From: an uncultured Pirellulales bacterium
GTDB taxonomy: Bacteria > Planctomycetota > Planctomycetia > Pirellulales > Thermoguttaceae
Assembly: GCA_938015445.1 (NCBI GenBank)
Contig: CALLPE010000038.1
Span: 62,001 to 126,000 of the forward strand
DNA: 64,000 bases
Reading direction: 5' to 3'
The notes beneath the pieces are model-generated. The model had not been told where the DNA came from. It saw only the letters and a program-made list of their open reading frames with translations, and did not search any database. The number at the start of each line of letters is the position of its first letter. Positions within the stretch are counted from its first letter, which is position 1. Shown one piece after another: positions 46,037-49,946 of the stretch. The translations under genes were made by a program, and so were the position numbers.

Positions 46037-46663
46037 ATGGCCCACGAAAGCAACAGTGCAGCAGCCGGCGCAGCGACTGGCGGGGGTTCGTCTCCGTTGG
46101 CGACAATCAAGATAGTGGTGCTGGCAGGCGCAATTATCGGCGCACAGTGCGTAGCGGCCTACATGTTTTTGCCTTCGCCGTCCGACGCAGCAGCTATGGC
46201 CGCCGCTACCCTGCCGGGCGCCAAAGACGCCAACGGCCATCAGAACGGACAGAAAACCAACGGCCACAAGAGCAATGGCCACAAGACCGGCAGCGACACG
46301 AAGGACGTGGAGCCTGTCGAAGAAGTCGACCCCGAAAAATCAGAGAACATAGAGGTCGATTTGGGGCAATTTACCGTCACGTCGTTTCAGCCTTCATCGG
46401 CTACCACGCTAAGGATAGACTTTCATCTGTACGGCATAGTCAGCGCGAAGCACGAAAAAGAGTTCAACCGATTGAAGGAGGAAAACAAGCACCGCTTTCG
46501 CGACCAAGTGCTGGTGACCGTCCGCAGCGCCGAGCTGAGCGACCTGACCGACGCCAGCCTGGGGCTGCTGAAACGGCGCATCCTGGAAAAGACCAACCGC
46601 TTGCTGGGAAAGCCGCTGCTTCAAGGTGTGATTTTTACGGACTTTTCGTTCATCGAGCAGTAG
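46037..46663 (+). CDS. fliL: Flagellar basal-body-associated protein FliL
   Basis: 208 residues. One membrane helix is near the N-terminus (about 23-45, TIKIVVLAGAIIGAQCVAAY). It is followed by a low-complexity linker with repeated Asn-Gly-His-Lys (about 70-90). The FliL domain then follows: VDLGQFTVTSFQPSSATTLR, the HEKEFNRLKEENKHRFRDQV helix and the final LLGKPLLQGVIFTDFSFIEQ. FliL surrounds the stator and supports torque under load. It opens the second flagellar block, and fliN follows after about 200 bp with no fliM in between. Confidence 0.88.
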   Translation: MAHESNSAAAGAATGGGSSPLATIKIVVLAGAIIGAQCVAAYMFLPSPSDAAAMAAATLPGAKDANGHQNGQKTNGHKSNGHKTGSDTKDVEPVEEVDPEKSENIEVDLGQFTVTSFQPSSATTLRIDFHLYGIVSAKHEKEFNRLKEENKHRFRDQVLVTVRSAELSDLTDASLGLLKRRILEKTNRLLGKPLLQGVIFTDFSFIEQ

Positions 46664-46864
46664 CGGGCGGCGACCGCTGGGCGGCGGAACCGGTCGGGCA
46701 TCAACCTTCCGGGCGGCGAAACCCAGTCGGCCGGGGACCAGTTGATCCGGCGGTGTAGTCATCGCCGACGACGGAGGCGGATTGCTGCACCGTCTGTCGC
46801 TTGTACCAGATTCGGCAGTTGCCCCGTCCGCAAGCACCGACAGTGGCAACAGGAAAGGATTCCG

Positions 46865-47716
46865 ATGGCTAGCGACAACCTGATAGACCAGTCAGAGATC
46901 GAGCGCCTGCTCAGCCAATCGTCGGCGGCTAAGGCGCAGGCCGCGCAGCAGTCAGCAACGGCGGCTTCGGCGTCGGCGCCAGCGGGCGAAGCAAGTGCCT
47001 CAGCGCAGCAATCCCAGCCGAGCACGGCATCGCAGTCGGGAACGCCGTCGGCCGGTTCTTCGGGGGGCGAAAGGCCCGCGGAAAAGCCTGCGGCGGCAAC
47101 TGTCAATGCCGAAACGCTGGCCTCGGCGATGTCGCAGAACGCTGCCAGTCCGCCACCGAAGCCAGGCCAGTCAAAGACACAAGACGATGACAGCAGCCGC
47201 TTGCTGGCTCAAGCGGAGATCGAAAAGCTGCTCAGCGAGGCGGGCCGGACGCCTGCCCCGCCAGTGCCACCAGCACAGCAAACCAAAGAGTCACAGGTGC
47301 AAATGGCCGGCGAAGGCGACATACCCGAGCGCGACGTCGAGTTCCTGCTTCGCCAGGCCGAGCAGGCTCTAGCTTCTATCGGTGCGCCAAGCAGCGGGGA
47401 ACTGCCGCCCGGTGTCAGTGCCTTTCGTTTAGAAGAACTTAAAGGCGCGCCGGCTTCTACCGAGGCAGCCAGCTTCGATCTGATCCGCGACGTGGAGCTA
47501 GACCTGCGCATCGAGCTGGGCCGCACCCACATGTACCTCGAGGATGTGCTCAAGCTGCGCAAGGGCGCCGTGGTGCCGCTGGATAAGATGGCCGGCGAAC
47601 CGGTGGACATTTACGTCAACGGACGGCTAATCGCCAGGGGAGAAGTGCTGGTGCTGAACGACAACTTCTGCGTGCGGGTGGCAGAGTTGGTCGCCGGCAC
47701 CAAGATCGAAGTGTGA
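46865..47716 (+). CDS. fliN: Flagellar motor switch protein FliN with three FliM-like N-terminal motifs
   Basis: 283 residues from the ATG at 46865, which follows AAAGGA; upstream in-frame starts have no ribosome site. Enteric FliN has about 137 residues. The C-terminal SpoA domain (about 205-283) is typical: VELDLRIELGRTHMYLEDVL, KMAGEPVDIYVNG and LNDNFCVRVAELV. The N-terminal two thirds are disordered, rich in Ala, Gln and Ser. They contain DQSEIERLLSQ (8-18), LLAQAEIEKLLSEAG (113-127) and ERDVEFLLRQAEQ (155-167), which resemble the CheY-binding peptide at the FliM N-terminus (LSQAEIDALL). The protein may combine FliN and FliM-like signal reception. It lies between fliL and fliO. Confidence 0.92.
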   Translation: MASDNLIDQSEIERLLSQSSAAKAQAAQQSATAASASAPAGEASASAQQSQPSTASQSGTPSAGSSGGERPAEKPAAATVNAETLASAMSQNAASPPPKPGQSKTQDDDSSRLLAQAEIEKLLSEAGRTPAPPVPPAQQTKESQVQMAGEGDIPERDVEFLLRQAEQALASIGAPSSGELPPGVSAFRLEELKGAPASTEAASFDLIRDVELDLRIELGRTHMYLEDVLKLRKGAVVPLDKMAGEPVDIYVNGRLIARGEVLVLNDNFCVRVAELVAGTKIEV

Positions 47717-47899: not shown

Positions 47900-48865
47900 A
47901 TGCCGCTACGCACTCATGCATTAACGTTGCTTGTCGTTGCGCTGGCAAGCAAAGTTTTGCCCGCCGCGCAACATGCTTACCGAGTTGCCGCGGGCGTCGC
48001 AGAGCAATCGCCTACGCAGCCAGCGGTGTTCGGGGCTGCGCAAAATAGCGACGAAGCCGGCGCTGCGCGGCAGGCGCGTGCGGCGGAAACCGCAGGTTGG
48101 CCCGGCCCACGAGCCGCGCCGCCCGAAGACATATCGCCCGCCGAAGGCGCGGCGGACCGTGCAGGCGCGTCGGTAATCTCCGGTGATAGCAGGCAGAGGG
48201 TTGCTTCCTGGGGCAACGTGGATAGTTCGGCTGCGGCACCTGGGGCCGTCGATCAGGCGCTGTCGCGTCCAACTGCTGACCCAAGTTCCCGTGCAGTTGC
48301 AGATGGATACTCGCCCGGCGCTACCGGACAACCGGCTGCTAGCGTGGCCGAAAGCGGCAACCGCAAAGGTTCTCGTCTGTTGCTGTCGGCCCCACGTAAC
48401 ACAGGCAGCCAGCAGCCAGACAATCTGCGGTTCGGGCTGCCGCTGATCGTGACGCTGGGCGGCAGTCTGGCGCTGGTGCTAGGAGTTTTTTTTCTGATCG
48501 TTTGGGCGGTGCGCTGCGCAGCCCCGCGCGGCTTGACAGTGTTGCCATCCGAGGTGGTAGAGGTGTTGGGCCGCGCACCGCTGGCCGGACGCCAGCAACT
48601 GCATCTATTGCGTTGCGGAAAGAAGCTGATTCTGGTGTCGGTCACCCCGGCAGGGGCCGAAACACTCACCGAAATCACCGAACCCGAGGAGGTCGACCGG
48701 CTGGCGGGCCTGTGCCAGCAGGCCCGACCCAACAGCGCCACCGCTGCCTTTCGGCAGGTGCTGCGGCAACTGGCCGGGCAAAACGGCTCTAACGGTGATG
48801 CAGTTGTTTCTGGGCTGGATACTAGCGCAACGGCAGTAGGCCGTCAGGAGGACGCCGATGCTTAG
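47900..48865 (+). CDS. fliO: Flagellar biosynthesis protein FliO
   Basis: 321 residues, longer than usual. A probable signal peptide (about 1-22) is followed by a long Ala-rich disordered periplasmic stretch with no recognisable domain. A single membrane helix lies at about 178-205 ([20 protein letters not shown]). The cytoplasmic FliO domain follows ([20 protein letters not shown], then [20 protein letters not shown]), ending in a Leu-rich helix. FliO helps FliP assemble the export gate. The last codons overlap the fliP start by eight bases, which suggests coupled translation. Confidence 0.85.
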
Positions 48866-48983
48866 TCCACCTGTGCGCACGCTTACTCCACCTGTGCGCA
48901 TGCCGAGTAGGTTTGTGTCCACGCTTAGTCCACCTGTGCGCATGCGAACTCCATTTGTGTGCACGGCTAGCCAACCTGTGTGT
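48858..48983 (+). repeat. 21-bp tandem repeat, six units, in frame at the start of fliP
   Basis: Exactly six units of 21 bases, for example ATGCTTAGTCCACCTGTGCG and ACGCTTACTCCACCTGTGCG, each encoding seven residues: [42 protein letters not shown]. Units alternate between ATG and ACG at their first codon. The array overlaps the last eight bases of fliO. Confidence 0.9.
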
Positions 48984-49946
48984 AACTGCGGCCCCGCACG
49001 ATCGGCCACTGCCGAAACTGTCGGAACCACAGTAGTCGATCATCCAGTTCTGTGGGGCCGCTGGCCCGCCGAAACGTGGCGGCGCATTTTTGTGGTTTGC
49101 GCGGCGGTGTTTGCGTCATTTATTATTTTTTTGGGGCCGGCTACGTTGGTTTTTGCGCAACAGTCTGCAACTTGGTCCACAGCGGATCAATCCGCGTCTG
49201 CTGCTCCGTCAACACAGGCCAGCGCCAATCAGCCGCTGAAGCTGCAACTGCCCGAAGGACTAGCCGCAGGCCCCGAACACTGGACCAGCCCCGAAGGACT
49301 CAGCTCGGCCTTGCAGGTGATGCTTTTGCTGACGGTGCTGAGCCTGGCCCCGGCGATCCTGCTGATGACCACTTGTTTTGTGCGGATCGTAGTGGTGTTG
49401 GGATTGTTGCGGCAGGCGGTCGGTACCCAGCAGCTACCGCCTAGTCAGGTGATCACCGCCTTGGCGCTATTCCTTACTTTGCTCGTCATGGCGCCGGTGT
49501 GGAAGAAAGTGTATGACGATGCAATTGTTCCCTATACCCAGCGGCAGATTACCCTGGAGCAGGCGTGGGAAGCCGGGTCGTCCCCGATCAGGCAATTCAT
49601 GGCGATGCAGATCGAGCGGACAGGCAATTCGGCCGACGTACATCTGTTCCTCAGCTATCTGCCCGACCAACCCACACCGCAAACTTACGACGAGGTGCCG
49701 CTGGTAGCGCTTTTGCCGGCGTTCATGCTCAGCGAACTGAAGACGGCCTTTTTGATTGGCTTTCAGATATACTTGCCGTTTCTGATCTTAGACCTGGTGA
49801 TTTCCAGCGTGATGGTATCGATGGGAATGTTGATGTTGCCGCCGGTGATAATTTCGCTGCCCTTCAAGCTGCTGCTGTTCGTGCTTGTTGACGGCTGGCG
49901 ATTGGTCGTTGGGATGTTGCTAGAGAGCTTTCAAGCGTTCACATAG
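48858..49946 (+). CDS. fliP: Flagellar export gate protein FliP
   Basis: 362 residues, about 115 more than E. coli FliP. The core is clear: [59 protein letters not shown], the periplasmic part, and the C-terminal [20 protein letters not shown] and [20 protein letters not shown]. FliP forms the pentameric gate with FliQ and FliR. The extra N-terminus begins with six in-frame heptapeptide repeats encoded by a 21-bp tandem repeat. A possible signal peptide (about 76-100, [15 protein letters not shown]) follows. True translation might start further downstream, but no better start codon with a ribosome site was seen. Confidence 0.92.

Follow-up and report, generated by a model that had tools for sequence, protein, structure and literature searches.

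The Flagellar Locus and Its FliN

The window (the whole 64,000-nucleotide stretch of DNA from an uncultured Pirellulales bacterium that was analysed) contains a group of flagellar genes in which fliN is preceded by a fliL-type gene and followed by fliO-type and fliP genes (Table 1). The fliN reading frame proposed in a first-pass annotation is well founded: its ATG at 46865 lies behind a ribosome-binding site (AGGAAAGGA, positions 46851 through 46859), and its 283-residue product has a SpoA domain. That annotation was also right that no fliM separates the fliL-type gene from fliN. The SpoA domain (residues 204 through 276 by domain search) makes up the C-terminal 75 residues; the preceding 195 residues are rich in Ala, Pro, Ser, and Gln. 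In a Pfam search SpoA was the sole match above cut-off; a CheC-like middle domain was not found, nor was the FliM middle domain (PF02154), which is present in a separate fliM. The protein scores 101.9 bits with TIGR02480 (FliN; cut-off 84.05) and 100 bits with FliY models, far under their cut-off of 218. A FliY identity was rejected, as the protein has no CheC domain and the SpoA proteins of the genome are FliN and FliM only. By domain content and gene context, the protein is a FliN, and neither FliY nor FliM. Upstream of the flagellar genes (window:44250-45462, + strand), a small PD-(D/E)XK nuclease-like frame with a D12-class adenine DNA methyltransferase immediately after it resembles a compact restriction-modification pair.

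Table 1. Features of the fliN locus, in window positions
Feature	Positions	Strand	Evidence
fliL-type gene, upstream of fliN	46037..46663	+	PF03748, 26.7 bits (cut-off 24.6)
fliN, 283 aa: disordered tail with putative docking motifs, then SpoA domain	46865..47716	+	ORF and domain search
Copy 1, LIDQSEIERLLSQ, FliM/FliY-type docking motif (putative), residues 6-18, extreme N terminus	46880..46918	+	11.1 bits (FliM matrix)
Possible relic copy, TVNAETLASAMSQ, residues about 79-92	47099..47140	+	Aligns with intact middle copy of relatives
Copy 2, LLAQAEIEKLLSE, FliM/FliY-type docking motif (putative), residues 113-125	47201..47239	+	13.1 bits (FliM matrix)
Conserved helix, PERDVEFLLRQAEQALASI, residues 155-173, not FliM-like	47327..47383	+	Alignment, scores, AlphaFold model
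SpoA (FliMN_C) domain, residues 206-276 of FliN	47480..47692	+	PF01052, 3.4e-24
fliO-type gene, downstream of fliN	47900..48865	+	TIGR03500, 34 bits (below cut-off of 55)
fliP	48858..49946	+	TIGR01103, 258 bits (above cut-off)

Two Segments of the FliN Tail Resemble the FliM Docking Peptide

The tail was scored with a 13-position matrix trained on N-terminal peptides of FliM, 67 distinct sequences in all (39 planctomycete and 28 from other phyla); as only FliM peptides were used, FliN had no part in the training. Two segments, herein copies 1 and 2, match it (Table 1), and the best remaining place in FliN scores -5.2 bits. When the tail was shuffled 20,000 times, one match of at least 10 bits arose in 34 shuffles and two matches in none. 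The window's open frames, 80,635 residues in total, hold a single match of at least 8 bits outside FliN, and across 0.49 Mb of the genome the matches at this level are the two in FliN, one in FliM (34 bits), and two in weak, unrelated frames. On the strength of these shuffles and backgrounds, chance or composition was rejected as the source of copies 1 and 2. Testing for EIDAL-class peptides against FliM peptides likewise placed both copies beyond chance, and not the third segment of the tail. Looking for a copy by exact DNA pattern returned no match. Three FliM-like motifs had been annotated at first pass; those at residues 8 through 18 and 113 through 127 stand (11.1 and 13.1 bits), whereas the one at residues 155 through 167 falls below -10 bits. 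In the AlphaFold model, a helix at residues 9 through 32 spans copy 1 and another at residues 116 through 126 coincides with copy 2.

The resemblance is partial. Mean scores with the FliM matrix are 10.6 bits for copy 1 and 14.2 bits for copy 2, compared with 33.2 bits for true FliM peptides, and the FliN copies differ from the latter consistently (position 8 has E for D, position 9 has K, R, or Q, and the last position is Q). Given these lower scores and consistent differences, the copies may bind less tightly or have another partner.

A Third Conserved Helix and a Possible Relic Copy

The third segment (ERDVEFLLRQAEQALASI, residues 155 through 167) was rejected as a CheY-docking copy on its FliM-matrix score, which averages -7.9 bits over 41 relatives. 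It has a signature of its own, D-[IV]-E-[YF]-L-[LF]-x-Q-A-E-x-A-[LI]-x-S-[IV], in which D, L, A, and S are invariant in those 41 relatives; it aligns without gaps and forms the best-predicted helix of the tail (residues 155 through 173; AlphaFold pLDDT about 77 to 92). Similar segments (e.g., TPDDIERLLDQAQNAIDAL) are found in FliNs of the family that have neither copy 1 nor copy 2, which implies different constraints on the two kinds of element. The third segment is probably a structural or assembly helix of FliN beside the SpoA domain.

Alignment suggests that a middle copy, between copies 1 and 2 at about residues 79 through 92, has decayed in the FliN studied here; a helix is predicted there by AlphaFold (residues 82 through 90), and the region has no FliM-matrix score. 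Besides its two FliM-like copies, the tail thus has a possible relic and a conserved helix of another kind.

The Host Genome Encodes a Canonical FliM and a Chemotaxis CheY

The first-pass annotation, having seen no fliM beside fliN, implied that FliM was absent and called for a search of the genome for fliM and fliY. That absence is contradicted by a canonical fliM on another contig (G000:C16:127906-128481, - strand; 221 bits), which encodes an intact peptide of its own, VLSQAEVENLLSA. The search found no fliY, as FliN and FliM are the only two SpoA proteins in the genome, which is 88% complete. Read from the translations, fliM adjoins an Hpt-domain gene and a proA-type gene. A lone Hpt-domain protein encoded downstream of fliM (L195:6938-7423, - strand) is a possible phosphotransfer partner for a motor response regulator.

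A CheY encoded on contig C9, near CheA, CheR, a CheC-like protein, and CheD, is 48% identical to Escherichia coli CheY. It retains the activation residues (D12, D13, D57, T87, and K109) and nearly all positions of the FliM-binding groove (A90, K92, Y106, V108, F111, T112, K119, and K122). A separate CheW was not found in the genome (88% complete), where the sole CheW-domain match (G000:C9:90671-91075) is the C terminus of CheA.

Conservation and Number of FliM-Like Copies among Relatives

The closest records to this FliN are from Pirellulales and Thermoguttaceae metagenome-assembled genomes. In a 33-sequence alignment the entropy of the copy cores is 0.80 bits (copy 1) and 1.02 bits (copy 2), against 1.8 to 2.6 bits for the linkers; the copies stay conserved while the Ala/Pro linkers between them vary in sequence and length. 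Such an alignment of relatives had been suggested as a check on all three annotated motifs, and it shows copies 1 and 2 to be conserved and FliM-like, and the third segment to be conserved and not FliM-like. The first-pass annotation would have been undone by a normal fliM elsewhere in the genome together with a lack of motif conservation; the gene is there, and the motifs are conserved.

Among 47 Pirellulales-type FliNs, 36 have at least two FliM-like copies; counting FliM-like cores, with the third segment counted apart, there are zero copies in 5 proteins, one in 6, two in 18, three in 17, and five in 1. At a threshold of 8 bits the FliM matrix finds a mean of 1.7 copies in 50 FliNs and 0.003 in their shuffles. 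In a sample of the class, motifs occur in most Pirellulales families (f2, f81 through f83, f86, and f88), in part of f3, and in f91, and the short FliNs of other groups are without them; some lineages in the rest of the phylum have single copies. As judged from these sequences, a FliN with two or three FliM-type copies on a flexible tail is a trait of a large planctomycete group.

Within the family, the FliN motifs accompany those of FliM, in counts that ignore shared descent: one or more FliM-like copies occur on FliN in 26 of the 27 genomes where the FliM peptide is present, and in 0 of 7 where it is missing or FliM is divergent. On the same footing, 6 of 9 motif-less FliNs belong to genomes with no detectable CheW. 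Only G010 (68% complete) and G045 (a single weak match) combine FliN copies with no CheW, and three family genomes with CheW have motifs in neither FliN nor FliM. In G011 (L006), a congener of G044 (L007), copy 1 of FliN is broken (LL to QL) and copy 2 is erased, with the third helix and the FliM peptide intact; CheW was not found in G011. Our first reading of this pair as a joint loss of motifs and chemotaxis was dropped, and the comparison is only suggestive, since G011 still has an intact FliM peptide.

Comparison with Known Docking Peptides

The copies resemble the N-terminal EIDAL/EIDALL peptide of FliM in sequence class, in the extreme N-terminal position of copy 1, and in being short helices on the disordered tether of a C-ring protein; unlike that peptide, they lie on FliN, number at least two, are additional to FliM's own, and match the FliM consensus more weakly. 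FliY of the Bacillus/Thermotoga/Synergistetes type similarly joins an N-terminal EIDAL peptide to a FliN-type SpoA domain, with FliM alongside. The FliN described here differs from it in having several copies and no CheC-like middle domain; the FliYs in our sample each have a single EIDAL copy. E. coli and Salmonella FliN have a short N-terminal region without EIDAL copies; the SpoA domain is shared with them, as is, by homology, an equivalent place in the C-ring.

Scattered FliNs and FliYs with a full or degenerate EIDAL motif were reported by Henderson et al. (2020, PMC6946799). Those FliNs, and a short FliN of Bacillus and Neobacillus, likewise carry the motif directly, but as single copies rather than an array. 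In five Bacillus/Neobacillus genomes (L109, L116, L124, L128, and L131) the motif is on the short FliN (e.g., NLTQDEMDALLG) and the adjacent FliM is without a peptide; by sequence, this is an independent case of a FliN bearing a docking site. A further motif-less FliN-like paralogue of about 120 aa is encoded about 7.5 kb away at the same five loci. A literature search, with most subscription journals outside its reach, returned no report of several EIDAL copies on one FliN. A single EIDAL on FliN, and FliY as a FliN-type carrier, are thus already known, and the array on FliN is apparently unreported.

A Possible CheY-P Docking Array on FliN

As FliN has more than one FliM/FliY-type motif, and these are conserved and multiplied in relatives, it may well bind CheY, with several molecules per subunit. 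We consider it reasonably probable that the tail strings together EIDAL docking peptides of the FliM/FliY type, with CheY-P as their likeliest partner, supplementing the site on FliM. Activated CheY takes up the FliM EIDALL peptide in its alpha4-alpha5 groove (PMC9126983), changing the ID of the Caulobacter FliM motif abolishes CheY binding (PMC5677366), and FliM passes CheY to a second site via a flexible tether (PMC7355467). Each FliN peptide would bind activated CheY in the same groove. In Salmonella, the C-ring has FliG, FliM, and FliN at 1:1:3 (PMC11528121); at a similar stoichiometry there would be about seven docking sites per protomer (one on FliM and six on FliN) instead of one, so that the motor may have several-fold more places for CheY to dock than a textbook motor has. 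Because CheY is monovalent, the gain would come not from avidity but from a higher local concentration of CheY-P and from rebinding, and the array would act as a local CheY-P reservoir feeding the motor-flipping site on FliM and FliG. The sequences themselves show the motifs, their likeness to FliM peptides, their conservation and co-occurrence with the FliM peptide, and a CheY whose activation and groove residues are kept; CheY-P binding, the stoichiometry, and the effect on switching are the parts that we infer. More tentatively, and with the balance somewhat against it, Pirellulales motors at large might take the chemotaxis signal via a reservoir of CheY-P on multiple FliN peptides, about seven or more docking sites per protomer besides the one on FliM. 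Counted against a CheY array are the scores of the copies, lower than those of FliM peptides; the Salmonella C-ring with CheY, where contacts are to FliM and FliG and none to FliN (PMC11528121); G011; and the three CheW-containing genomes without motifs.

The main rival to CheY-P docking, which we judge fairly unlikely, is that the array chiefly docks a factor for C-ring assembly, such as FlhG, the MinD-like ATPase of flagellar number; several copies would then help to load FliN/FliM onto nascent basal bodies, and the array could serve to build the C-ring or to set how many flagella form. In Bacillus and Geobacillus the FliY segment bound by FlhG is residues 1 through 36, and in polar flagellates FlhG binds the FliM N terminus (PMC12327844, PMC12826062), the region of the EIDAL motif. 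Another partner would suit the consistent differences of the FliN copies from FliM peptides, and also G011, where the copies were dropped and the FliM peptide kept. Genomes without CheW mostly lack the FliN motifs too, which fits chemotaxis better than FlhG; no FlhF/FlhG-like gene was seen in 0.49 Mb of the genome, which, at about 11% of the total, weighs little.

Copies 1 and 2 might instead be structural duplicates of the FliN helix at residues 155 through 173, for instance packing on SpoA domains or FliH, whose likeness to FliM peptides would come just from a shared form as short amphipathic helices with DxExLL. The two copies do score positively with a matrix built on the third segment (7.9 and 6.4 bits) and have a DIExLLxQ core in common with it; this partial sharing makes a common origin by duplication possible. 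A purely structural role is nevertheless unlikely: the copies score higher with the FliM matrix (10.6 and 14.2 bits), which the third segment does not match (-7.9 bits), the third segment outlasts copies 1 and 2 in FliNs without them, and the long, variable linkers around the copies are not what packed structural elements would have. The version in the first-pass annotation, in which FliN receives the signal for want of FliM, drew on the lack of fliM beside fliN. It is now very improbable, given the canonical fliM with its intact peptide on another contig and the co-occurrence of FliM and FliN motifs in relatives; FliN as a stand-in for a missing FliM was rejected on finding that gene.

If such a CheY-P reservoir on FliN is real, these motors would have a distinct architecture for signal reception, in which motif copy number would tune switch sensitivity or response time. 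Debate continues over how tether-captured CheY-P is turned into cooperative switching of the motor and over the part of FliN in it; natural FliNs ranging from zero to five copies, in a group whose FliM retains its single copy, would allow a direct test of how switch sensitivity depends on how many docking sites there are and where they lie. For annotation, CheY docking should not be taken as a property of FliM only.

Other SpoA Proteins in the Family

Most family genomes (L211, L213, and similar loci, e.g., G001:C390 and G008:C135) encode a second SpoA protein of about 310 to 345 aa with a FliY-like layout, whose N-terminal half is conserved and unrecognised by Pfam; it was not found among the two SpoA matches of the host genome. 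In genera g17 and g21 (L202 through L205 and L198), short divergent FliN-like proteins occur with no CheW and with a FliM that is absent or barely recognisable. Judged by sequence, these loci perhaps encode a non-chemotactic flagellum or another export system.
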